Shown here piece by piece: positions 50 to 51,809 of a stretch of DNA of 64,000 nucleotides (positions are counted from its first letter, which is position 1; every line of letters starts with the position of its first letter). The position numbers and the translations under genes are program-made. The DNA is from Fragilariopsis cylindrus CCMP1102. Taxonomy: Eukaryota; Bacillariophyta; Bacillariophyceae; Bacillariales; Bacillariaceae. Under the pieces are notes generated by a model, which had not been told where the DNA came from, made no database searches, and saw only the letters and a program-made list of their open reading frames with translations. The stretch covers positions 992,001-1,056,000 of the forward strand of contig FMBT01000289.1 in NCBI GenBank assembly GCA_900095095.1, read 5' to 3'.

Positions 50-1100
50 TTAAAATCGACCACGACCACCGCCACGACCACCACCGCGTCCACCACCACG
101 TCCACCTCCTCTTCCCCCTCTGCCTCCGGACGAGAATCCTCCTCGTCCTCCACCTCGTCCTCCGAAGCCGCCGCCTCTACCACCACCACGACCACCCCCG
201 CGTCCACCACCACGACCTCCACCGCGGCCTCCACCGCGACCACCTCTTCCGCCGCCTCTTCCACTACTTCGTCCTCCTCCTCCTGAACTTGGATTAGTAA
301 ATCTTGATACAGGTAATAATTTATCAGTTCCAATGTATAGAAGATCATTCGGTTGGAAGCTCTTACTTAGTACACCTGGATCCATCTTTACTGTAAAGAA
401 AATTTCAGCGACCTTACCAAGAATTTCATCGACTTTACCAATTTTACGCTTATTTTCTAGATATACGCCAGCATTGAAATATGGTACCTTTTGATCTAAC
501 GTCCATCGACATACTAGTTCTGATTCACAATCATGTAACACGTGACCCGATTCTAAATAATAATTTGGGTGAATAATGTATGATGCATCATTAATCATTG
601 AAGTGAGAAAATGAAAATTGTAAATTTGAAAGAAAGAAAGAAGACGAAACAGATATCATATCACATAGAAGAATCTCTAAATCTTCTCTACCGAAGAAGA
701 CCCGAGTCGAAGTTGTCAAAGATTACACCAACGGCACTATTATCGACATACAATACAGCCACATTTCATCCAAACACAGTCCAATCATACAATCGCATAT
801 CATAAACGTACCAACAATTTCAGCTGGTGGTCCTTCATCCCGACCGAATCTGCACCATTAAGAAAAACAAGATAAAGAAATAGAAGATCAAACAAGAAGG
901 AAGTGAGACAATAATAATATAGCAAACAGTCCATGATCATCAAGTGTATGAATGCGTCTATTTCATTCCTTCGCATATCATTGACAGAATATACTGAATA
1001 ATACTTACCGTCCTCCACCACCTCTTCCACCACTAAATCGACCACCTCCTCTGCCGCCGCCTCTGCCGCCGCCTCTACCAAAACCTCCTCTTCCGCTCAT
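50..1100 (-). CDS. GAR1: GAR1, H/ACA snoRNP core subunit (3 exons)
   Basis: Core protein of box H/ACA ribonucleoproteins, which pseudouridylate rRNA and snRNA in the nucleolus. I read three exons: 1100-1009, 849-812 and 552-50, joined at GTAAGT/CAG and GTACGT/TAG sites. The phases fit and give 210 residues. Exon 1 encodes a short Gly-Arg-rich N terminus. Exon 2 supplies the family hallmark DEGPPAEIV, and exon 3 continues with ESGHVLHDCESELVC and VPYFNAGVYLENK, then KVDEI and LLPVSRF, all typical of GAR1. The protein ends in a long RGG/GRGG tail, so two GAR domains flank the core as in yeast GAR1. An internal Met of exon 3 at 598 could be mistaken for the start, but that would lose the PPAEIV strand. 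It is head-to-head with the gene at 1592. Identity is secure; the exact splice sites are read by eye. Confidence 0.93.
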
Positions 1101-1591
1101 TTTTATTTTTCGTGGATTATGTGTATATTATCGAAATTTCAATTTTATATCTTTGTGGTACAATTCAGAATATACTGTCGATTCGATAGGTAGCTAAATA
1201 ATGTTAGTGATAGGTTCGGTACAAGCTTGTATGTATGCTGTAATTATATAGAGATTGACTATGATAACAATTTAAGCTAGCTGTTGTAGTAAGAATGTAT
1301 GTAAAGTTACTGTCTACTGTGTACTGTATGTTATTGGCGTTGTTATTATTGTCGTCTTGTCGTCGATATTATACGACAACCACCCATTTTGAAGTCAGAT
1401 TTTCGTGCAAAATTCATGGAATCACGAATAAACTGTGACTTGAAATGCTTAAAAGCACAAATTGAAAATCCCAACAGAAAAATCCTGCTACAGACTAGCC
1501 ACTAGCTTCAATATACTAGCAGTCCAATATTGTAGTACAGTAAATGCAGCAGTTAGCATTGATTAATTATTTCCTTCATCAACATATCAAC
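1101..1591. promoter_or_regulatory. divergent gap between GAR1 and the 1592 gene
   Basis: This 491-bp gap separates two start codons that point away from each other, so it must hold both promoters. An ATTGGCG (inverted CCAAT-type) motif lies at 1333-1339. I see no convincing ORF or RNA gene. Confidence 0.4.
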
Positions 1592-2158
1592 ATGGCTAAG
1601 AAAAAGAACAAATCCCAGCTTGACGATGCTAAGCCCAAGAGCAGCAGTAGCAACAACAAACCCAAACGGGAAGTCCAAGTAGTAACTTGTCCATCAGCAT
1701 TTCCAATTTCGACAAAACCAAAAAAGAAACGTCCACGCGATGACGACGACGGAAAAACAAAAAAGAAAGAGAAGTTACTTGATTGGCACGATACAGCAAA
1801 AGAAATTAGAAATTACGGTGCACAAGCATTTATTGGTCGACAAAAGAAAGACTATGAAGATGAACAATATTATAAATTAACAGGCCGGCATAAAGCGAAA
1901 CCAAAATGTCCTTTACCACTCGTTCGGGGATTAAAAAGAGCAGCAGCCAAACGAGATGCTAAAGCAAAAGAAGAAGCTAGAAAAGCTGGAATTGTTATAC
2001 CAAAACAGAAAGATGATTCATCTAGAAAGTCTATGTCGGATCACGACTTTCATAAATTCGGTCCAGCACCTAATATTGGTTTCATGAAGGATGGACAATA
2101 TAGAGCAACAGCAAACCAGAATAATAAGAGAGCAAATGTAGTCAAGAAGAGACGATGA
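1592..2158 (+). CDS. DUF4602/C1orf131-like basic nucleolar protein
   Basis: A 188-residue, very Lys/Arg-rich, hydrophilic protein with an N-terminal KKKNK-type basic tract and a C-terminal KKRR. The central block (FIGRQKKDYEDEQYYKL, then CPLPLVRGLKRAAAKR, AKAKEEARKAGI) matches my memory of the DUF4602 family, whose human member C1orf131 is a small-subunit processome component. That family link is from recall and is moderately secure. I chose ATG 1592 (MAKKK) because the in-frame ATG at 1544 adds 16 hydrophobic residues unlike the rest. The gene is divergent from GAR1, another nucleolar factor, which fits a role in ribosome biogenesis. No introns are needed. Confidence 0.7.
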   Translation: MAKKKNKSQLDDAKPKSSSSNNKPKREVQVVTCPSAFPISTKPKKKRPRDDDDGKTKKKEKLLDWHDTAKEIRNYGAQAFIGRQKKDYEDEQYYKLTGRHKAKPKCPLPLVRGLKRAAAKRDAKAKEEARKAGIVIPKQKDDSSRKSMSDHDFHKFGPAPNIGFMKDGQYRATANQNNKRANVVKKRR

Positions 2159-2616
2159 TTTGTTTTTATTTGATTTGGAAGATAGATAGAGGAGAGAAAG
2201 CATACAGAGATGATTCGTACGGTGTACATGTACAAAGTATATCCTAATGTAAAATCGATGTACCTGCAGTATTTTGTAAGATATGTTGAATATTGAATCG
2301 CTACTTACTTTTAAACATGTATATTACACTTTACTACGGTAGCAGTCTAAAACGTCGACTCTCTAACAGTAGAGAATAGGATGAAAGTATTTTATGTACG
2401 ACCTATATTTTAATCTGTATTATATTGTATTGTATTGTATTGTATTGTATTATAGTATCTATTTTATGTTATGTTCATTATACATTATAGCATGCATGTA
2501 TAATAATATAAATTACCACATTATTTTAGCTGAAGTCGCGGCTATGCAGATGTAACGAATTGAGGAAAAAAAATCATCCCTTTAATGACATAGCAGCACG
2601 CCTTTACGATGTTCCC
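2159..2616. other. convergent intergenic gap
   Basis: Terminator-side gap between two convergent genes. It is AT-rich, with a (TATTG)n pentanucleotide run at about 2423-2452. No coding or RNA gene is seen. Confidence 0.5.
2423..2452. repeat. (TATTG)n microsatellite
   Basis: About six tandem TATTG units in the convergent gap downstream of the 1592 gene. Confidence 0.9.
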
Positions 2617-4383
2617 TTATGCCTTCGTGGGATCATTCATATTAAACTCGTCTATCAATTTACCTAAATCTGTCACCATCGGTGAAACGTTTCTAACAAA
2701 GTCTGCGACGTCCCGCTTTGAGTTTTCAATCACGATATCTTCTATTGACGACGATACCGTAGACGATGAACTGTATACTATTGAACTGTTGTCATTGTCA
2801 GTAGTAATGGCGTTACTTCCGCCGGTAGTAGGATCATAAAACGATGATGATCCGCCGCCGCCGCCGCCGACCATATCTGTATTTAACTGGTTTAGATCGA
2901 AATGGCTTTCACTGGATAGGATAAGATTGTTCTTGCGCTTTTTCTTTTCTTCCTTCCCACAATTAAACATCCGGAGTGTATCTTCCCACTTCTCAACAAT
3001 TCCACCTCCAATTTTTTCCATTGCCACGAAAAATTCGTTATCATCCTTTTCTTCCGTAGTGGAAGCCGCCGAATCCTCCTCGCAGACGGATGAGGAAGTA
3101 GAAATCTGACTAGTAGTATAACTATTGGTAAAATCTGAAAGCTTACGAGCTAGAGGAGGATGATGATAATCATCATCACCCTCTGATCGTGTACTGGTTG
3201 CCTTGTATTGCTGTTTACCAACATTGCTGGTTATTGGCAAGTCTTTTGGTGGGCAAATAGACAACCAAATCTTGTCAATAGGAGGAGTACCACCAAAAGA
3301 TTGTGAAAATATATGTTTGATAGCCCAACCATGGTAGTCATGGTAAACAATTTTATAAGCTGCACTGGCGGCATCTTTAGGAGAAGTGTAATATTCTGGT
3401 ACTACTAACGAATTACCGAATGTTGTCAATTGATAATGAAGCTGTCTTTTGGTCCATAGTAGACCCGATGCGGAAGATTTTTCTTTTAGAAATGGGAATT
3501 TCTTATGAACTTTCATTTCTAATTCGAACTGGAGGAGCTGCCGTAGGGTAGGAGAAGGAATCATCGACGTTGTGGGACTTTTCCTTTCCTTATTCAGGGT
3601 CTGATAGTGTATTAAATATTCGTGAACGCCCCTCTCAATCTTTTCTAGATTCTGTAACACATCTCGGTAGGCTAAACTTAACCCCACGGCGTATCTTTGA
3701 TATCCTTTGGGTACCATGCGTAAATTCCTCCATTCGGCAAAAATACGAGTAACAGCTACAAATCGTAACGCATCTATGTCCCCCTCACTTCTTTTCTTCG
3801 ATGTTGATATTATCTTTGCTGTTCCTTCCGATAAACATCCACGAGATGCCTTGACAGCCATGTCTAAAGCAGTAATGACGGCTCTCAATATCTGAGTCTG
3901 TTCAGCTATAAACTTATTCTTTTCAAAGTCATATAGATTGGCATCAGTAGCGTACCGAAATAGAATTGTTATATCATTTATTGATAGTCGTTCGATATAG
4001 TCTAACCTCGCGAAGCATTCTTTTCGTGTAATGGATCGTATAGCGGAACGTAGGAGCGAATTAGAGCAATCTAAAGAACTTAATATATTTTTGGAAAGAT
4101 TCTTAAATGTATCCACCGATGTCACTCGTGAAAGAGAAGATAAAGTAATGTCGTTGCCTTTTATTGATGGTCGTCGAATGATATTATAAATGAAGATGAA
4201 CGTAGTTAAAAGGAGAAGACTACTTGAGGCAGCATCAATGGAAAACGTAGCACGAGCGTTTATAATATACAAAGTTCCTGCGAAGCAACAAGTCGTCGCA
4301 GAAACAATGGTCATGGCATAGCTTTTGTTCTTGTTGTGTCGTTTGATCGTTTCTAAATCTTCTAAGTTAGGGTGCCTACACAT
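2617..4383 (-). CDS. membrane-anchored GLTP-domain-like protein, copy 1
   Basis: A 588-residue protein, paralogous to the next minus-strand gene. Two hydrophobic segments (about residues 21-42 and 55-70) come first, followed by an all-helical region that carries the glycolipid transfer protein signature. An Asp-x3-Asn-x2-Lys motif sits at D241/N245/K248 (RDVLQNLEKIE), Trp at W310 (GLLWTKRQL) and His at H351 (YHGWAIKHIF). These are the positions that bind the sugar head group in GLTP (D48, N52, K55, W96, H140 in human GLTP). It would bind a glycosphingolipid or related lipid at a membrane. The tail is acidic and disordered and ends DEFNMNDPTKA, nearly identical to its paralogue. The open frame reaches 4428, but the first ATG is at 4383. 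Family assignment rests on the motif pattern only. Confidence 0.68.
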   Translation of the reverse strand: MCRHPNLEDLETIKRHNKNKSYAMTIVSATTCCFAGTLYIINARATFSIDAASSSLLLLTTFIFIYNIIRRPSIKGNDITLSSLSRVTSVDTFKNLSKNILSSLDCSNSLLRSAIRSITRKECFARLDYIERLSINDITILFRYATDANLYDFEKNKFIAEQTQILRAVITALDMAVKASRGCLSEGTAKIISTSKKRSEGDIDALRFVAVTRIFAEWRNLRMVPKGYQRYAVGLSLAYRDVLQNLEKIERGVHEYLIHYQTLNKERKSPTTSMIPSPTLRQLLQFELEMKVHKKFPFLKEKSSASGLLWTKRQLHYQLTTFGNSLVVPEYYTSPKDAASAAYKIVYHDYHGWAIKHIFSQSFGGTPPIDKIWLSICPPKDLPITSNVGKQQYKATSTRSEGDDDYHHPPLARKLSDFTNSYTTSQISTSSSVCEEDSAASTTEEKDDNEFFVAMEKIGGGIVEKWEDTLRMFNCGKEEKKKRKNNLILSSESHFDLNQLNTDMVGGGGGGSSSFYDPTTGGSNAITTDNDNSSIVYSSSSTVSSSIEDIVIENSKRDVADFVRNVSPMVTDLGKLIDEFNMNDPTKA

Positions 4384-4453
4384 GGTACCAATACGGTAGG
4401 TAATCTTTAATTTGTTATCTGTATTCAATGCGGTGTTAGTTCGAAGGTAAAGG

Positions 4454-4454
4454 G

Positions 4455-4488
<34 letters not shown>
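4454..4488. repeat. (GTT)n trinucleotide run
   Basis: About eleven GTT units lie just upstream of GLTP-like copy 1. Read on the minus strand they are AAC/CAA repeats, probably in the 5' leader. Confidence 0.9.
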
Positions 4489-4813
4489 GACTGGTTAACT
4501 TTGTTTGTACGTGAATAATCGCTTTATTACTGAAATTGTGGAATAATGCATAAATCGCCAAGAAACACTGAGTATGTGATATAATTTTTGAACGGATGAA
4601 AAATTACTTATTTTCATGTCGTGGGGCATCACACATTGGCGTGATGATAAACATCATCACATTGGCGTCATAAACGTGAAGCTTCGCCCTAACGTTAGTA
4701 ACGTTAGCGTAGTGCCTGAAACAGAATAGTTGACATTTTAAGGACGACGTGTTTCTGACGCAACTACAAAACGTGTAATCGTAAAGTGCGCAAGCCGCGC
4801 GCCTAATGAATGA

Positions 4814-5311
4814 TACTCCATTTCAGTCGTTCCTAGATGAATGAATGATACAAGTTTAGGAACTAATAACTCATGCTCGCCGTAGAAACGTACTAGCGCG
4901 CTACGACGAAAAAATGTGTAATTAGTCTTAGCCTTTTTTACCGAGCATCGGTGCCACGTGTAACTACTGACTACAGTAAAAAAGCACGTAATCATATTTT
5001 TCGCTTCGAATATATCATATATAACACATGAAAATGGGAATGTATTGAATTGAACCTCCATGGGTATCGGTCTATTTAACGTAAGCTTATGAGACGAAAT
5101 ATAGTGTATCATTCTGTGCTATTATAATGACCGGTGACCACGCTTTTAGACCAATTTAAGACCGCATTCTAGTCGATGCTCTATTGCCGTAGTTAAGTAA
5201 TTGAATTATTGCAGTAGTTAACTAGTTGAATTAATGGGCTCATATCCCGAGCAAAAAAAAGTGTGGCATTAGTTCCTAAACTGGTACTCCATTTCAGTCG
5301 TTCCTAGATGA
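4814..5311. repeat. 27-bp direct repeat flanked by 14-bp inverted arms
   Basis: The 27-bp word at 4814-4840 recurs exactly at 5285-5311. Next to the copies, GTTTAGGAACTAAT (4854-4867) is the reverse complement of ATTAGTTCCTAAAC (5268-5281). The segment between may be an inserted or rearranged non-coding element; no transposase is present. Confidence 0.6.
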
Positions 5312-5800
5312 TGAAACCTACGAGAAGATAACAAAATTTAATACTTTGATCAGTAAGTGATAATAGTAGCTTGTGATACTTCAAGTGATAGCGGCACTTT
5401 GCAACAGCAGCAACAGCAGCTATCATGTTCAAAGTGTATGAAAAATATCGATGGAATGAAAAAGACATGAATTGCCACTCTACCTGGTATCTAGCTAGTG
5501 GTATGGTATATCGCAATGTGATGAACTGGTGTTGCTTGAACATATATTATTGATCATTTTCAATTATCACTATTGTTATCGGATATAAGTAAGCTGAGCA
5601 CACTTGTGCTCGTATTCTTTCTCTTTCCTCCTTTCCTTTTGCAATGATAATATCTTATTTTATTTTCCAAAGCACTTGTGAAAAATGCATAAGAAAGAAG
5701 AAGAATTATCCATAGGATTATGTATGATTGGAGGCCATGCGCAATAGACACATCATTTTTTTCTTGAGAAGTACCCTTTTCTAAATGAATAAAAATATAT

Positions 5801-5829
5801 ACATACATACATACATACATACATACATA
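5801..5829. repeat. (ACAT)n microsatellite
   Basis: Seven tandem ACAT units in the intergenic region downstream of GLTP-like copy 2. Confidence 0.9.
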
Positions 5830-6081
5830 ACGGCATATATCTATGAATATAAGCATCCTCCCCAAAAGCATTGCCATTCTCTAGGTCAAGGGACACATAC
5901 ATTAAGTTATAGCATTAGTATGTACAGAGGATTAATCTACAGTGTTGATGACTTTTCTGTGTATTGTGATAATCTATTTTCTGTATATTATTACGTAATG
6001 GATTAATTGTGTGATGTAATTAAAGTTTCTTATGTTCCTGAAATGTGGGTAAGTACAGAGTGAACTCTGGTTCTTCACTTC

Positions 6082-8112
6082 TTAAACCTTGGTAGGATCA
6101 TCCATATTGAATTCGTCGGTAAGACGGGAAAGGTCGTATAGTAGTGGTTCTGCTACCTCCAGATATACTTTAATGTTATCGTATGCATCCTTTCTCATTT
6201 CTTGGTTGATATAGTCCTCCATTTCGTCCTCCATTTCGAGTTGTCTTGCGATCGTTGTTTCCTCAGTCATTGTTGTCTGTTCTGGATCTACTTTTTCATC
6301 ACCATCAAGTTTCAAGATCAATCGTCGCCGTTTATCATTATTTTGTCGGTGTACTTCCCGCCGTTTATGTCCGAACAACTGACTAATATTACTGGTCACC
6401 TTATCCCATTCATTGATTACATGTACAGAATGTTTTTCCCATTCATTGACGACATTATTAGCGATCTTGTCCCATTCCTTTCCAATATGTCGACCAAATC
6501 TTTCTATGGGGTTGTTACTCTCTAGATCTCCCAATGGACCACCAAATGTCCGTTGTTGTTTATGTTCCGGCACTCTCATAATAATAGATCTAGCTTCCTG
6601 TTGGACTTCCTCTAAGCGATGTGGATTCATGTACTTGTATATTTCAATACCTTCCGGTGCGGCTTGGAAACTGTAGCTGAATATCTTTTGAACGGCCCAA
6701 CCATGAAGGCTTCCATATATTTCATCGTACGCATCTTGTACAGCCGATCTGGAAGAGTCAAATCGACCAGGAACTTCCAGTACGTTCTTAAATATGGCTG
6801 TTTGATAAACAAGTTGTCTTCGGACCCACAAAAGTCCCATCGCTGCACTCTTTTCCTTCAATTTAGGAAGCTTCGTGTTGTCATGAAGATCTGTATCGGT
6901 CTCAAATTGCAATAAGTCTCGGAGTGTTGGGCTGATCAATACTTTATTGCGATGATCGACAGTTCCGTTGCTTGTATTATGTTCCTTATTGTCATCATCA
7001 TCATCGTGATCATCCGTAACACCACGATGATCGATATAATTGTGAATGGCTTGTTCAATCTTCGCGATATTTTGTACAATATCTTTCTGACCAAGACCGA
7101 TACCAACTGCGTAGCCTTTGTAGCCAGGAGGAACTTGCCGAAGGACACGCCACTCCGCAAATACTCTCATTGCTGCACAAAAGTTAATGGCGTCGATATC
7201 ACCCGACGATGGCGGAACGACGACGCCGGTAATGGGAGCCTGAACATACTTCCCCCGAGCTACTGATGTTGTTGTGGACAGACGATCTACCAATTTTTTG
7301 ACACGAGGTAAGACTCCTGATAGGAATTTACCAGAATTAAAACCGTTCTGAGTACTTTCTACAGCATATCTGAAGGACATCGATAAGTCCTTTAATGTTA
7401 ATTGTGCAATATCTTTGAGTGGTACAAAGCAATCTGGGCTGGATAGAATAAAATCTTTACTACTTGTTGTAGAAGAAGTAGATGACTTCTTTTTTGGTTT
7501 TGACTTTTTGCTGCTGCTACTACTTCGTGTCCTTCCCGCTACGGCGGCACCGCCTCGTGGTGTTTCCAAAACAACTCGGGTTGGATTAAAATCATCATAG
7601 TCATTGTCATCGTGTGAATATATCGTGACTTGAAAGGCATCTCGTACTTGTTCCACAACAGTAGAAACCGAACCGAACCAGCCAGTGTTCGTCGATGATG
7701 ATGATGATGATCGTTGATCTACTACTACATGTAGTGCAGGAATATGACTATGATATCGAAAGGCGGGACGGATCACATCTGCACTCAAGGCATCATAATG
7801 ATCCTGTGCTTCAAATGATTCCATCTGTGTTGCACCATCGACCATATGAAAAATCACACTAAAAGCAATCAAAATGAAAAGAGATAGTTTTCCAACCGTC
7901 CATCTATTTGTATCATCAAATTGTGCATTGACATTGACATTGACATTGGTGGTGGTGGTTGATGTGCTTGCTGTTGTTATTATTTTTGCTGTGGTAGTAT
8001 CGTCGTTCTTATTGTCTTTCAAACTAAAAGCTTCCTCATCATCGCCCATGCAACAGGATCTTGTATTGCCGTCTATCATCTCCTGATTGTTATTACATCT
8101 ATTATTATCCAT
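6082..8112 (-). CDS. membrane-anchored GLTP-domain-like protein, copy 2
   Basis: A 676-residue paralogue of the 2617-4383 gene, same strand, 1.7 kb away. One hydrophobic segment lies at about residues 72-91, followed by Ser/Lys-rich low-complexity sequence. The GLTP-type helical region then carries all five key residues: D344/N348/K351 (KDIVQNIAKIE), W429 (GLLWVRRQL) and H470 (LHGWAVQKIF). An Asp-rich loop of about 25 residues separates the DNK motif from the Trp. The C-terminal half has coiled-coil-like, Trp-containing repeats (KEWDKI, NEWEKH, NEWDKV) and ends DEFNMDDPTKV like copy 1. ATG 8112 is a possible start. A spliced alternative uses the upstream exon at 8489-8751 and acceptor AG at 8099-8100, giving 759 residues in frame. 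Lipid binding is inferred from the signature. Confidence 0.7.
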   Translation of the reverse strand: MDNNRCNNNQEMIDGNTRSCCMGDDEEAFSLKDNKNDDTTTAKIITTASTSTTTTNVNVNVNAQFDDTNRWTVGKLSLFILIAFSVIFHMVDGATQMESFEAQDHYDALSADVIRPAFRYHSHIPALHVVVDQRSSSSSSTNTGWFGSVSTVVEQVRDAFQVTIYSHDDNDYDDFNPTRVVLETPRGGAAVAGRTRSSSSSKKSKPKKKSSTSSTTSSKDFILSSPDCFVPLKDIAQLTLKDLSMSFRYAVESTQNGFNSGKFLSGVLPRVKKLVDRLSTTTSVARGKYVQAPITGVVVPPSSGDIDAINFCAAMRVFAEWRVLRQVPPGYKGYAVGIGLGQKDIVQNIAKIEQAIHNYIDHRGVTDDHDDDDDNKEHNTSNGTVDHRNKVLISPTLRDLLQFETDTDLHDNTKLPKLKEKSAAMGLLWVRRQLVYQTAIFKNVLEVPGRFDSSRSAVQDAYDEIYGSLHGWAVQKIFSYSFQAAPEGIEIYKYMNPHRLEEVQQEARSIIMRVPEHKQQRTFGGPLGDLESNNPIERFGRHIGKEWDKIANNVVNEWEKHSVHVINEWDKVTSNISQLFGHKRREVHRQNNDKRRRLILKLDGDEKVDPEQTTMTEETTIARQLEMEDEMEDYINQEMRKDAYDNIKVYLEVAEPLLYDLSRLTDEFNMDDPTKV

Positions 8113-9241: not shown

Positions 9242-10522
9242 ATGGAATACTTCTTTTACTTTAAAAGGAATCTATCACATTTTGTGTTTCTTCTTTCGTT
9301 GAGTACATTCGTAGTGTTCGTCGTCGTGGAGGAAGCAGCAATAACGACTACTACAGCCTTCGTCGTACCCATAATAATAGCTCGTCGTCGTCAGAAATGT
9401 TGTCATCGTGATACTACGAACTTCTCTATGCAAGGAGCAAGTGGCGGTGAAGTGCATCAAGATCAGCATGGACGTACCATCCAAATACCTATACAACAAA
9501 TGAACGAGGACAACAGCAACAACAACAACAACGACCGAACGACTCAGATCGAAGCAGAGACAACAACAGTAAAATCTAACCTCGAACCTTTAGTAGTATG
9601 CGGTCCTTCAGGTGTTGGCAAGGGAACAGTAATCGATTGCCTTAGAAAACGATATCCATCGAAGGTTTTTGGATTTAGTGTTTCACATACGACACGACAA
9701 CCACGACCAGGAGAAATCCATGGACAACATTATTACTTTACCACTATTGAGGACATACAACGTGATATTGATCAGGGTATGTTTGTAGAGCATGCACTTG
9801 TCCATGGGAATTATTATGGTACAAGTAAAGAAGCAATTCAAGTCCTACAAGATGAAAATAAAATTACAATATTAGATATTGATATGCAGGGAGTGATATC
9901 AGTAAAGGAATCGAATGTTCCTGCAAAATATATCTTCATTGCACCACCATCAATGATCGAATTAGAAAATAGGTTACGAGGTCGAGGTACAGAAACTGAA
10001 GATGCTATTCAAAAACGGATTGGAAATGCTGCAAAAGAAATTGAATACGGTCAACAACAGGATGAGGAAGTTGATAATCGTATATTTGTCAATAACGATG
10101 TTGAGAATACTGTAAATGAAATCATTGAAGTTTTGAATGAATGGTATCCTCAATTAAAGGAAGGAAGCATGGTATCAATACAACAACAACAGAATCAACA
10201 GCAACAAGTAATGGATAAAGAACAATCTACCACTGTCGAAGCAACAACAAAAGAATCTAATCGTGCGTTTGATATTATGGGTGAAAGTGATAGAATGTTA
10301 GATCTTTCTTCAGTACGAATGCATAATCGATTAGAGCCAGTCGATCGAACCACACGTGAAGAGGAAGACATAACAGCAACAACAACAACGACAACAGAGT
10401 CGGATGGAAAGGGGGAGATAAATGATGGAAGTGAAGATGATTCGATAGAGGACATGCTCGGATTCTCGGCATCGTCTCCCTTTCGATATTTGGGCGATAT
10501 AGATCCGAACATTCGAATATGA
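9242..10522 (+). CDS. plastid-type guanylate kinase
   Basis: Converts GMP and ATP to GDP and ADP. The N terminus is a hydrophobic signal segment (about residues 11-33) followed by TTAF-VVP at 38-43, an ASAFAP-type site, so import into the plastid is likely. The kinase domain starts near residue 116: P-loop GPSGVGKGT (121-129), then SVSHTTRQPRPGE, the GMP-binding loop typical of the family, then HGNYYGTS, ILDIDMQGV and a lid RLRGRGTE. The P-loop has Gly-Thr where cytosolic enzymes have Ser-Thr; plant organellar enzymes also vary here. A Gln/Thr/Ser-rich tail of about 110 residues after the kinase fold has no known function. The gene has no introns and is divergent from GLTP-like copy 2. Confidence 0.93.
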   Translation: MEYFFYFKRNLSHFVFLLSLSTFVVFVVVEEAAITTTTAFVVPIIIARRRQKCCHRDTTNFSMQGASGGEVHQDQHGRTIQIPIQQMNEDNSNNNNNDRTTQIEAETTTVKSNLEPLVVCGPSGVGKGTVIDCLRKRYPSKVFGFSVSHTTRQPRPGEIHGQHYYFTTIEDIQRDIDQGMFVEHALVHGNYYGTSKEAIQVLQDENKITILDIDMQGVISVKESNVPAKYIFIAPPSMIELENRLRGRGTETEDAIQKRIGNAAKEIEYGQQQDEEVDNRIFVNNDVENTVNEIIEVLNEWYPQLKEGSMVSIQQQQNQQQQVMDKEQSTTVEATTKESNRAFDIMGESDRMLDLSSVRMHNRLEPVDRTTREEEDITATTTTTTESDGKGEINDGSEDDSIEDMLGFSASSPFRYLGDIDPNIRI

Positions 10523-29100: not shown

Positions 29101-32100
29101 TAAAATACACTACCGAATGAATCGAGAAACTAATTCTCACGATATTCCTTTTATCCTCCCTCCCTCCCTCTACGTCTATCTCTATTTCTACTCAAAAAGG
29201 TGTGCCATCCGGCTTTGCGATAGCTCTATACTTGCTGACGATATGAATATCGAATTGGTAGACTACGTCGTTCAATCCATCGTGGGTATGCCGGAACATC
29301 GGGATCTTGTCCTCAATTGGCCGATGATGTTAAAGGCCATTCGGAGCGAAAATCCTCAACAGGGATCTGCCGACGAAAGAGAAGAGATTGCAACACAACG
29401 AATCCTTTTACGGATGTTGGCTACTTCTGCGGAAATCGAATTCGGAAAGGCATCGCGAATTGAACAAGATGGTGATTCTAAGAAAAATAATAATACACAA
29501 ATTTCTAGGAAGCGTAAAAAGTCGTCGTCGTCAAATCACGTCACGGAGACAAGTTTGGATGATTTATCCATTGCTCTATTGAAAAATCTTCCTAATCTGC
29601 TTGACGCTTTCAAGAGTGATATCATGTCCTTGCGTGATGTGACAAAACTTCCTCTGACCATCACCTCGTCGGCACTCGGTCTCCCAGCCCGCAAAGCCGA
29701 CTTTCAAAATCTTGCCAAGACTTTATGTCAATTGTACATCGATTCGACCGACGAACAAGTCTTACAGAATATCGCTCAAACTCTTTCTCAATGGGTCGAA
29801 GGAGACCATACGCGGGTATCAGAAGTCAAAATTAACCTTAAACGTTTGTCGGGTGCCTTACAAGACCGTCTGATGGAACTTTTTAGAGAAAGTGATCCCG
29901 AAAATCAAGGGGAGCGGGAAAGAAAATCCCCACGACGTAACAGGCGCAAGAAGTCAGATGGTAGCACTATTGGTGAATCCTCTATGTTTTCTTCGTCTCA
30001 AGAAGTTGACACTGAGCATTCTATTTCCTTGTTGATGCTACGTTGGAAGACACTCCTCATGGAATGTAAGGCAACATATTTGTTTGAAAAGGCCGACGAA
30101 GATGAGGACGAGGACGAGATCGAAGGACTATTCTTTACCATATCAGAAGCCATGGGAAAGAGACTTTCTGATAGAATGTCCAAGCACGATCGTGAAGTAG
30201 AAGACGACGCCGCGACGATTGCGACAACTCCTACCATCTGGAAGGACGATGACCCTGATATTCACGAGGCAGTTTCCCAAACAATCAATCGAGCATTGAG
30301 AGTACTTCTCGTCATCGTTTCGCAAGAGTTACTCGAGACACTGGAAAGTCGAAAGGATTTTGAAGCTTCCGGAAACGATGATGGCATTGATATGGATGCT
30401 GATGAACATAATTTTCCTGTCTTGAAAATGAGAGATAATCTTCTTCGAGTTCTTGGTCTTTGCTTTGATCAACACCTGCCTGAAGTCGATGGAGTAGAAT
30501 ATTCGGAGGAGCAGCAAGAGTTTGCTACCTCGGTGCAAGATAGTGCTGGCAAAGTAACATCTGACTTGCGCACACTATTTCCTTCCGATTGGTCAAATGG
30601 TAGTGATCCTGTCCGTAGGGCGCTTGCATTGACAGGTGGGCAAAATTTAGAAACCTTACTCGCAGGTTTCGTTCGGTGGTTTCAGTCCAGACAAGAGAGT
30701 ATGAATGCCAAGGAGGAAACGGGACTTAACACAATGGTTAGAGATGGCCTGCTACCTCTAGCTCGTATCATCAATCTGAACTATCAAGACTTTCACCGGA
30801 AAGAGGCAGGTATGCTTTTAAAACACATCAACGGCAGTGGAAGTTTGGCATCGCAAACTATTCTTTCGTTGACACGTAAACTAAAGAAGGTAGGAATGAT
30901 TTGCACGAATGCTAGGTATTCGATTGCTATGATGCCAATGTAGGTCCTATCATTCTCTTTCTCATCATCACGTTTTTCTTCTTTGTTCTGTTCTATTACT
31001 CTTAATATCTCTCTAATGCATACATTCGCTGTTAGACAAACCCACTTCGTATGCTTGAAGCTTATATGTCTTGTCTAAAATTTTCGTTTGAAAATTGGGT
31101 TGACAACGAACCGAATGAACCAGAAGAGAGCGCGCCAAGTGAAGAAGAAATTCAAAAATTTGAAGAAGCGGAAAAGCGTCATGAAGACTTATTCGCTTCA
31201 ATGGAGCAAGTAGCATCGAAGCTTTCTTCGTCTCTTGGTGTTGCCGGAAAACTCGGCAATGAGGTTTTGAAAAAATCGATTCGTGGCTTCATGAGAGAAG
31301 GAATTCGCTTTGCTTTTGATGGCCCTAATTCTGGTGATGATGACGAGCTTGTGGTAGGAAGTCGTTTGGCATTTTTATCGATGCTTCAAAAATTTACAAG
31401 TTGGGTAAAGAAAGACAAGGAAAATCTTGACAATCTGACCGATTTTCTCATTGCAAAGGAAACCGAGCTTAGACGTCATCCTGAGTTCGACGAAATTCAC
31501 CCCGAGGACTTAAACTCCCTTACCAACTTCCGAAAGTCTATGGGGATTAAAGGAGAAATTTCCTATTCGATAGTGTCAGGCACTGATGGTCGTTCGATTT
31601 CTATGGCAGAAAGCCCCGCTTCTACTGCTGTTTCTTCTCGTCGCAGAATCTCAACCACCGGGAGTCGAGTTTCTCGACTTTCCGGTCTTTCTATTCAAAG
31701 CGAGTTGTCTCCCTTACTCGAAGAAGATGACGACACTAGAGTTGAAGATGGAGACGAAAATTCTCCGACTCCACAGAAAGGAAGACAGTTGCGCCGTGCG
31801 GACACACGAGACGACGACGAGTCTCTTACCCATGCAGGCGACGACGAGACTACTGTTGCTTCTCTGAAACGGAGCTCTGTTGGAACTGTTCTGGAAGAAA
31901 GTGAACAAGAGGACGATGAGACAGACGGGTCTCTCACTCGTAATGGCGACGACGAAACTACCTTTACCAAAAGAAGCTCAGAAGATGACGGGTCTCTCAC
32001 TCGTAATGGCGACGACGAAACTACCTATACCAAAAGAAGCTCAGAAGATGACGGGTCTCTCACTCGTAATGGCGACGACGAAACTACCTTTACCAAAAGA

Positions 32101-32436
32101 AGCTCAGAAGATGACGGGTCTCTCACTCGTAATGGCGACGACGAAACTACTTTTACCAAAAGAAGCTCAGAAGATGACGGGTCTCTCACTCGTAATGGCG
32201 ATGACGAAACTACTTTTACCAAAAGAAGCTCAGAAGATGACGGGTCTGTTACTCGTGCGGATGACGACGAGACTGCTGCTGCGTCGAAAAAAAGCTCAGA
32301 ATACGAGCAAGACGAGAGTGATGATGGGTCTGTTACTCGTGCGGATGACGACGAGACTGCTGCTGCGTCGAAACGCAGCTCTGGCGGGTCGGTTTTGGAT
32401 GAAGACGAACAAGAAAGTGAAGGGAGCGAGGAATAA
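26191..32436 (+). CDS. SCC3: cohesin subunit SCC3/STAG
   Basis: Subunit of the cohesin ring complex that binds the kleisin and DNA. I read four exons: 26191-26342, 26758-29049, 29200-30889 and 31036-32436, all in phase, giving 1844 residues. The STAG core is clear: VFIHRYRDANERIRRDCLRS, IFLVDTYLKYFGWMASDKSP, SVRIAALEGL at about 28455-28650, with HEAT-like helices after it. The N terminus is basic with SRSRKQS and then very acidic (Asp/Glu runs) with Lys tracts. Intron 29050-29199 is exactly 150 nt and has no stop, so it hides in the open frame; splicing gives AKWCAIRLCDSS. Intron 30890-31035 is clear because the unspliced frame stops at 30943. The C terminus holds 21-residue repeats rich in SSEDDGSLTRNGDDETTFTK, far longer and more acidic than in animal STAG proteins. 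Confidence 0.9.
26421..26473. repeat. (GATTT)n microsatellite in SCC3 intron 1
   Basis: About ten perfect GATTT units in the first intron of the SCC3 gene. Confidence 0.92.
31924..32382 (+). repeat. 63-bp coding tandem repeat at SCC3 C terminus
   Basis: Five near-identical 63-bp units start at 31924, 31987, 32050, 32113 and 32176, followed by two diverged units at 32239 and 32323; a weaker related unit lies near 31813. Each encodes 21 residues with Ser/Thr next to Asp/Glu, like casein-kinase-2 sites. The open frames in other phases and on the opposite strand here are artefacts of the repeat. Confidence 0.93.
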
Positions 32437-50397: not shown

Positions 50398-51809
50398 TTA
50401 GACACGTTCATTAAACGCCTTCGGTGCATATTCACTTGGCTTCTTATATGTTCCCCATAGTCTATCAAACCATGTAAATAGATGTCCATAATTGTATTTA
50501 AAAAATGCATGATGGACATGATGGTCAGCTGGTGTACCGAATCCGATCAGATGAAAGATTTGATCCCATGGGAATGTATATTCCGAATGGATTAATGTTA
50601 ACCAATTTGCATATAAGCTACCAAATGCCATATACGACCAAACATTACAATCCACTAGATTCGCTGTTGCGTATAACGGAATCAGGATCATACATATTGT
50701 ATCCAGCATCGAACCATTAAATGCATCAAATAAACGTGGATTGGTAAACTTATGATGAGGTTTGTGTGAATATTTATAAAACGCAGGAGAGACATTATGT
50801 TCCAATAGATGCAGAATGAATTGAATACCATCTTGTATCACTAAACATAAAAAGACTTTGGACCATTCAATCCCACCCTCAAAGGAATAGTATGCTGCAG
50901 GCATTAATTGGAACATCCATGTTCCAGTGAGGTATCCACCCAATAAAACAAATCCTTCCGGTTGAGACAAATGCGTAGTAAGACCTTCCCAGAATTCATA
51001 TGGTCGTGCTCCCTTTGTTTGTATCGATAATGGTTCTTCTCCATACCTTGATGATAAAAATCCGTATTTGAAAAAATAAAATACAAACAAACATAATAGT
51101 TGACCAACAGCTACTGTTATTAGTCCCAGACATAATCCTAATGGTTTTGGTGATGAAGAAATATTACTACTACCGTCATTGGTGTTGTGGATGTTATACC
51201 ATGATTCGGGAAATATATCACTATAATGTAACGGACTACCGGGTGTATTCAGCAATAATGGGACGGTCAACATAAAAGGCCACATAATAGCACTTATCCA
51301 TGGTAGGACGGGAAATGAACCGACATCGAAGTCTACTCATAATATGGACAATAGTAACGTTGTTTTTATTCCAATTCAATATACACAAAGTAAATGAAAA
51401 TTATTGTGAGCGATAAAAAGAAAATGACAAAAGTGAAGCATTCATCACACACGACTCGGGGAAAAATCAATTAAAAATCAGGGTTTTGAACCGACATGGT
51501 TACCGATTTGAGGAAAATGAATATCGAACCAATTCAATGAAACATAAAAGAATTAATCGTACCATTATTTGTTGCATGATCAGCATGTTTTTTCTTTAAG
51601 TCGTTGTTGTTCGACGTCAATGAGGTATTTTTATCATTCTGTTTCGTCTCCTGCTGCGATGATGATGGTGATGATGCTGATGCTGATGACAATGCCGAGT
51701 CGACAATCGATTCTGAAAGTGGAATAGTCTTCTTATCAATAATATGCATCCTCGAACATCCTCCTACGTCTGATAGAGTTGTTTCTTGATGCCTTTCTAA
51801 CGGCGCCAT
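50398..51809 (-). CDS. sterol desaturase/fatty-acid hydroxylase family enzyme
   Basis: Membrane di-iron oxygenase. Exons 51809-51563 and 51332-50398 join in phase to 393 residues; the intron has a GTACGA donor and TAG acceptor, and splicing gives NNDFDVGSFPVLPW. Several membrane segments (about MWPFMLTVPLLL, CLGLITVAVGQLLCLFVFYF) precede the three His boxes: HLLEH, HKPHH and the final HVHHAFF. The stretch FFKYNYGHLFTWFDRLWGTY is close to the C-terminal motif of sterol C5-desaturases (ERG3/SC5D type), so C5 desaturation in sterol synthesis is the best guess, but other members hydroxylate fatty acids or sphingolipids. The N-terminal 80 residues from exon 1 are Ser-rich and divergent. Head-to-head with the SET-MYND gene. 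Confidence 0.82.

Follow-up and report, generated by a model that had tools for sequence, protein, structure and literature searches.

Two tandem genes of the diatom Fragilariopsis cylindrus encode GLTP-like proteins with long inserts and hydrophobic N-terminal segments

The stretch of DNA analysed here comprises 64,000 nucleotides of Fragilariopsis cylindrus CCMP1102 (contig FMBT01000289.1, positions 992,001 to 1,056,000; hereafter the window, in which positions are counted from 1). It carries two genes, designated a and b, whose products belong to the glycolipid transfer protein (GLTP) superfamily and may be tethered to membranes. The two form a tandem on the minus strand, approximately 1.7 kb apart and at the coordinates given in the initial annotation, and each consists of a single open frame. 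The frame of gene a extends to a TTG at position 4428, whereas the first ATG comes at codon 16 (position 4383), and the residues of protein a are numbered from the TTG, not from this ATG. In gene b a stop codon is found four codons upstream of the ATG. Comparison of the two proteins gives 144 identities over 496 positions (E 3e-58), with an identity of ∼40% in the core, in agreement with the initial annotation of the window, which described two neighbouring paralogues. The coding character of both frames can be regarded as real, because 76 of the 104 identical core residues are encoded by different codons, as would be expected if the genes are old and selection acts on the protein. In the whole genome, a six-frame, exon-by-exon search, the counts of which are lower bounds, locates the GLTP family in these two genes only, and a protein search of the genome with b as query yields three matches, all within a and b. 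Silicon transporter matches were obtained at 27 places in the genome (best E 1.1e-226), and 14 prokaryote controls gave one match, with none over the cut-off; these matches mark the genome as that of a diatom. No relatives of a and b were detected by profile and pattern scans of viral and prokaryotic contig collections, nor by a tblastn search of b against phages.

In a Pfam-A scan, a comparison that the initial annotation had proposed, both proteins match the GLTP family (PF08718) above its curated cut-off of 25.6 bits, with scores of 49.6 bits for a (E 6.6e-13) and 57.5 bits for b (E 2.4e-15). On the full-length proteins the match is limited to the second half of the domain, which includes the conserved W and H residues (profile positions 47–137 in a and 48–146 in b). 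Once the linker downstream of helix 2 has been excised, the match reaches back through the helix with the D, N and K residues, to profile position 24–29. Extension of the core with helix 2 raises the score from 58.6 to 74.3 bits in b (+15.7) and from 50.8 to 58.0 bits in a (+7.2). Controls with a shuffled helix 2 score lower in five out of five cases for both proteins (60.0–61.5 bits in b, 52.0–55.9 bits in a). Since shuffling thus removes most of the gain, the D-x3-N-x2-K motif is, as judged by these scores, a real GLTP helix 2, for which the evidence is strong in b and modest in a. In the PDB, profiles of the a/b pair also hit the chains of GLTP, FAPP2 and ACD11, with weaker hits to HET-C2, the glycolipid transfer-like protein 2i3f and CPTP. 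The NCBIfam scan gave nothing useful, and Rfam has no matches in the window at gathering scores.

The head-group residues are D256/N260/K263, W325/R328 and H366 in a, and D344/N348/K351, W429/R432 and H470 in b. The full D-x3-N-x2-K, W and H set, which the initial annotation had listed, is indeed present in both proteins, and the glycolipid-type signature DxxxNxxK...WxxR...H is complete. According to an extract of PMC8953657, glycolipid carriers have this signature and ceramide-1-phosphate carriers have DxxxK...RxxxRxxR...H; in that scheme a and b are of the glycolipid type, not of the ceramide-1-phosphate type. A ligand of the glycolipid type is therefore a reasoned expectation for both proteins. 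Just before helix 2 the proteins have another conserved block in common, which lies outside the Pfam GLTP match (Table 1). One of the two candidates for helix 1 in each protein falls inside this block, and it is possible that the block represents a divergent helix 1 with the loop that follows it.

Both proteins are considerably enlarged by inserts. In b the linker between helices 2 and 3 contains an acidic insert, DDHDDDDDNKEH, whereas the same linker in a is short and not acidic; the acidic stretch of a is located in a second insert. The description of long acidic inserts in the initial annotation thus applies to this linker in b, but not in a. The second insert separates the core from the C-terminal region and is poorly conserved, with a length of ∼172 residues in a and ∼136 residues in b.

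Following the second insert, a C-terminal block of ∼40 residues is common to both proteins, with the motif DEFNM(D/N)DPTK at its end. A DNA pattern for this motif (allowing up to three mismatches) has two occurrences in the genome of 68 Mb, one each in genes a and b, and the reversed control pattern has none. Since the pattern is confined to these two genes, the motif does not act as a sorting signal of wide use in this genome. Known GLTP-family domains end with a helix at the position of this block. The block is probably the end of the last helix of the GLTP fold itself, rather than an added tail, in which case the domain would be interrupted instead of tailed. Of the tail proposed in the initial annotation, the motif stands in both proteins, but its status as an extra element probably does not, with one test (the hidden Markov model described below) giving no support for a fold helix.

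The placement of the C-terminal block was assessed by comparing the a/b pair profile, with the inserts removed, to PDB chains without and with the block. Inclusion of the block raises the score of human GLTP (1swx) from 33.3 to 37.2 bits and moves the end of the alignment from residue 163 to 190 of 209; for ACD11 (4nt1) the score changes from 25.4 to 30.2 bits and the end from 164 to 197 of 207, and for HET-C2 (3kv0) from 21.2 to 23.3 bits and from 172 to 198. The changes are smaller for 5kdi (32.9 to 33.6 bits), 4kbr (19.9 to 20.7 bits) and 2i3f (19.9 to 21.0 bits), and 4k80 drops slightly, from 12.7 to 12.3 bits. The alignments end at profile positions 151 (1swx), 158 (4nt1) and 155 (3kv0), short of DEFNMxDPTK (positions 159–168); this comparison therefore speaks for the helix that precedes the motif, and the motif itself would be included by collinearity. 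In addition, the block was compared, ungapped and in free register, with the PDB-verified C-termini of four reference proteins. In all four cases its end coincides with that of the reference (GLTP, FAPP2) or overshoots it by two residues (ACD11, CPTP), and the score is reached by 22 (GLTP), 33 (FAPP2), 20 (ACD11) and 152 (CPTP) per 1000 column shuffles. Among the references themselves the six pairs are mostly weak in the last helix, with 23 of 500 shuffles for the best pair and 107–413 of 500 for the others; for the most part, the similarity of the references to one another in this helix does not exceed that of the block to them.

Further comparisons of the tail gave divergent results. With the tail anchored at its right end to human GLTP, only 1–14 of 2000 shuffles reach the score, whereas the same exact anchoring fails with CPTP (1994–1999 of 2000 shuffles as good); the anchored register was picked by eye, and the free-register figures are therefore the fairer ones. 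In the part of each protein that follows the HGW motif, no register against GLTP scores better than the end-anchored one, which ranks first in a and shares the first rank in b; outside this part there are stretches with equal or higher scores. Plain local scores of the tail are not significant (295–1415 of 2000). A hidden Markov model of the four references gives no support either, as the tail contributes +1.1 bits in b and −0.1 bits in a, and shuffled tails are as good in 89 and 196 of 1000 cases, respectively. When pieces of the inserts of a and b take the place of the tail in this model (132 in b, 169 in a), the best of them scores 61.5 bits against 56.5 for the true tail in b, and 45.4 against 42.6 bits in a. 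The MAFFT alignment of the references behind this model is poor in the last helix.

The N-terminal regions of both proteins contain hydrophobic segments, and membrane anchoring of a and b is likely. The membrane segments postulated in the initial annotation form an unequal pair, however: the segment in b is strong and resembles a signal anchor, whereas a has two borderline segments only, possibly arranged as a hairpin. Upstream of the segment of b the charges are approximately neutral (D66, D67, R70, K75), and just downstream five acidic residues are found (D92, E98, E101, D104, D107). By the positive-inside rule, these flanks predict a lumenal location for the GLTP domain of b. The same rule predicts a cytosolic GLTP domain for a, where basic flanks are present on both sides of the hairpin, and the predicted topologies of the two proteins thus differ. 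The data contain no feature that would specifically indicate the plastid. Residues 184–189 of b (window 7546–7563), after the hydrophobic segment, read TPRGGA and are followed by a basic Ser/Lys-rich stretch; motifs of the RGGA type are also found downstream of signal peptides in diatom proteins.

Table 1. Features of genes a and b in the window (KD, Kyte-Doolittle hydropathy over 19 residues)
Gene	Feature	Residues	Window position	Strand	Basis or remark
a	GLTP-like protein, 588 residues from first ATG		2617..4383	minus	Open reading frame list; Pfam GLTP 49.6 bits
a	Two borderline hydrophobic segments, possible hairpin	38-56 and 66-84	4177..4317	minus	KD means 1.65 and 1.78
a	Conserved block GDIDA..RxFAEWRxLRxVPxGYxxYAVG, directly N-terminal to helix 2	216-249	3682..3783	minus	Common run with b; outside Pfam GLTP match
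a	GLTP core	253-391	3256..3672	minus	Pfam, pair alignment, PDB profile matches, helix-2 shuffles
a	Long divergent insert, core to C-terminal block	392-563	2740..3255	minus	a/b alignment; boundaries approximate
a	FFAT-like motif EFFVAME, inside long insert	465-471	3016..3036	minus	Acidic EEKDDN upstream
a	C-terminal block, ending DEFNMNDPTKA	564-603	2620..2739	minus	Candidate last helix of GLTP fold
b	GLTP-like protein, 676 residues		6082..8112	minus	Open reading frame list; Pfam GLTP 57.5 bits
b	One strong hydrophobic segment, signal-anchor-like	~72-92	7837..7899	minus	KD mean up to 2.13 (best 19-mer 73-91)
b	Conserved block, as in a	304-337	7102..7203	minus	Same basis as a
b	GLTP core	341-500	6613..7092	minus	Pfam, pair alignment, PDB profile matches, helix-2 shuffles
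b	Acidic insert between helices 2 and 3	364-393	6934..7023	minus	Excision lets Pfam match reach helix 2
b	Long divergent insert, core to C-terminal block	501-636	6205..6612	minus	a/b alignment; boundaries approximate
b	C-terminal block, ending DEFNMDDPTKV	637-676	6085..6204	minus	Candidate last helix of GLTP fold

The long insert of a contains the sequence EFFVAME, which resembles the FFAT (two phenylalanines in an acidic tract) motif and is preceded by TTEEKDDN; the peptide that spans it is EEKDDNEFFVAMEK. No FFAT-like motif is present in b. As described in an extract of PMC3261905, the FFAT motif combines an EFFDA-E core with an acidic flank, and each element is variable, but the acid at position 4 matters: its loss much reduced targeting to the endoplasmic reticulum (ER). 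A hydrophobic residue at this position is mentioned once in that extract, for Edr-2, which has I there together with a denser acidic flank. In 5000 shuffles of protein a the core motif appeared in 53 and the core with such an acidic flank in 1; because the motif was spotted by eye, this figure is suggestive and not decisive. A possible partner is encoded in the genome, where the MSP family (PF00635) has two matches, in loci L008 and L009. The frame in L009 is VAP-like, with a partial MSP domain (37.2 bits), the sequence VKTTQPRRYLVRPN and, as seen by eye, a hydrophobic stretch near the C-terminus. Instead of direct evidence for the ER-plastid contact sites suggested in the initial annotation, the FFAT-like motif in a and the VAP-like gene are together suggestive of the ER side of some membrane contact. 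L008 was rejected as a VAP, as by eye it appears to encode another kind of protein, the C-terminal part of which is RING-like. Its frame (343-2799, plus strand) shows an unusual combination of an N-terminal region, the MSP domain match and, near the C-terminus, a RING-like cysteine pattern (by eye).

Although similar in the recognition core, a and b differ from the known members of the superfamily in architecture. Human GLTP (1swx) has the same DxxxNxxK, WxxR and H core and, as proposed here, the last helix in common with a and b, but it is a soluble protein of 209 residues without inserts, whereas a and b comprise 588 and 676 residues, with hydrophobic N-termini and a domain that is probably interrupted. 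HET-C2 (3kv0), a glycolipid-type GLTP according to the part of PMC8953657 that lists it, shows a longer profile match when the block is included; its PDB chain of 209 residues likewise has no inserts of the a/b kind. ACD11 (4nt1) clearly, and human CPTP (4k80/4kbr) weakly, belong to the same family by profile, and the last helix of ACD11 resembles the tails of a and b in the pattern P-[LM]-[ILV]-x-x-L-x-x-L. In contrast, the signature of ACD11 and CPTP is DxxxK...RxxxRxxR...H, where a and b have N and W instead (scheme in the same extract of PMC8953657). A parallel in organization is the GLTP domain of FAPP2/PLEKHA8 (5kdi), which has the glycolipid-type signature and is tied to the membrane by another part of the protein, although the C-terminal block adds little to the match with this chain. 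In the extract of PMC8953657, FAPP2 is presented as the only known exception to soluble shuttles, a lipid transfer protein anchored at contact sites, and a weak FFAT-like motif in FAPP2 is reported in that of PMC3261905. Unlike FAPP2, which uses a PH domain for phosphatidylinositol 4-phosphate, a and b would be anchored by a membrane segment; no PH domain appears for either protein among the Pfam hits with E values up to 1. Among the literature matches listed, the titles and the opening parts of the abstracts describe no diatom GLTP and no GLTP with a membrane segment.

On these grounds we consider it somewhat probable that a and b are membrane-tethered proteins of the GLTP superfamily which bind and transfer glycolipids, with a located at ER contacts. 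The N-terminal hydrophobic segments would anchor the proteins in an endomembrane, and the divergent link between the anchor and the conserved region (∼50 residues in a and ∼130 residues in b) would let the domain reach a facing membrane. The domain would extract a sugar-headed lipid by means of the D/H pair together with N, K and W, and then pass it locally to the facing membrane or sense it there. After the long insert, the C-terminal block would return as the last helix and complete the domain. In a, the FFAT-like motif within the insert would dock to VAP on the ER, resulting in a contact-site shuttle. Such a mechanism would follow the logic of FAPP2, with a membrane segment replacing the PH domain. 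An extended version, which is speculative and as a whole unlikely, is that not only does the membrane segment stand in for the PH domain, but the insert splits the fold just before its last helix and, in a, carries the VAP-binding motif at this site, such that docking to the ER could switch the pocket between open and closed, while the two paralogues operate on opposite faces of one endomembrane.

In addition to the results for the tail given above (the profile alignments that stop before the motif, the four-reference model and the insert segments), several observations weigh against the proposed tethered carriers. The EFFVAME core departs from FFAT at position 4 alone, where it has V and no acid. 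The hydrophobic segments of a are borderline. The flanks in b predict a lumenal domain, and contact with VAP would therefore be barred for this protein. The first helix of the GLTP fold (profile positions before 24) is not recovered in the Pfam comparison, as neither candidate helix (residues ∼258–279 and 304–324 in b, and their equivalents in a) lengthens the match. Finally, no ceramide glucosyltransferase was recognised among the five PF13506/PF13641 matches in the genome, where introns may hide one.

The strongest of the competing interpretations, which nevertheless appears unlikely to us, regards the hydrophobic segments as targeting signals or lumenal signal anchors, with at least b being a lumenal glycolipid carrier (in the ER or Golgi, or in the plastid after further import) and no shuttle in the cytosol. 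It draws on the charge distribution around the segment of b, neutral before and acidic after, which by the positive-inside rule would place the domain in the lumen; the ∼70 residues that precede this segment are, on the other hand, long for a signal peptide, and the paralogue a is predicted with the opposite topology. Rather doubtful is the proposal that a and b bind glycolipids as sensors or scaffolds, without transfer, in which the inserts and the tail serve as regions for protein interaction, the tail being a docking peptide in its own right. The length and poor conservation of the inserts are compatible with this proposal, as are the better conservation of the final 11 tail residues (9 identical) relative to the stretch before them, and the lack of support for the tail as an element of the fold in the four-reference model and in the profile alignments. 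It does not readily account for the retention of every recognition residue, among them N and W with their selectivity for glycolipids, in two proteins with only ∼40% identity in the core, nor for the gains that the block gives with the GLTP, ACD11 and HET-C2 chains and its consistent free registers. An error at the 5′ end of one or both gene models (an upstream exon not seen, with the membrane segments non-coding or mis-started and the products being soluble GLTPs with extensions) would fit the TTG start of frame a and the unconvincing alignment of the two N-terminal parts, but it is improbable in view of the hydrophobic runs, strong in b, that lie in open frame near both N-termini and the stop codon just upstream of the ATG of b.

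The genome was also searched for enzymes of glycolipid synthesis. An extract of PMC3722133 states that eukaryotes without glucosylceramide synthase make no GLTPs. The two PF13506 matches were rejected as glucosylceramide synthase, since by eye they represent two near-identical DPM1-like loci, and of the three PF13641 matches two fall at these same loci and the third is a GT2 protein with QRLRW. The eight PF03798 matches in the genome are compatible with ceramide synthesis, and equally with TLC proteins of other kinds. Introns may divide the synthase gene, the enzyme may be of another type, or the ligand of a and b may be a different glycolipid. The near-identical DPM1-like loci (L010 and L011, by eye) lie on different contigs, one of them with a frame break, and are perhaps the two haplotypes of the assembly; no second copy of the GLTP pair was found in the genome searches.

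Several other features of the window are recorded here. Between genes a and b, at 4811-4867 and 5268-5311, a 30-nucleotide direct repeat (97%) and a 19-nucleotide inverted repeat (95%) are present, with ∼400 nucleotides separating the arms; these repeats may mark where a short inserted element begins and ends. Gene b is adjoined by a guanylate kinase gene (9242-10522, plus strand; PF00625, 167.9 bits), the product of which has a hydrophobic N-terminal extension. Another lipid-modifying gene of the window encodes a protein of the fatty acid hydroxylase superfamily (50398-51285, minus strand; PF04116, 71 bits). A frame at 31051-32436 on the plus strand contains five near-identical repeats like DDGSLTRNGDDETTFTKRSSE and two more divergent ones (counted by eye), and is acidic and rich in Ser/Thr.

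If the interpretation of a and b as tethered glycolipid carriers is correct, these proteins would represent a second way, besides that of FAPP2, to fix a carrier with the GLTP fold at a contact site, in the diatoms, a group of algae in which the plastid membranes adjoin the ER. The DEFNMxDPTK block provides a usable motif for finding orthologues. In addition, because no clear synthase is recognised in the genome, a and b would test the rule, as given in the extract of PMC3722133, that GLTPs occur only together with glucosylceramide synthase.

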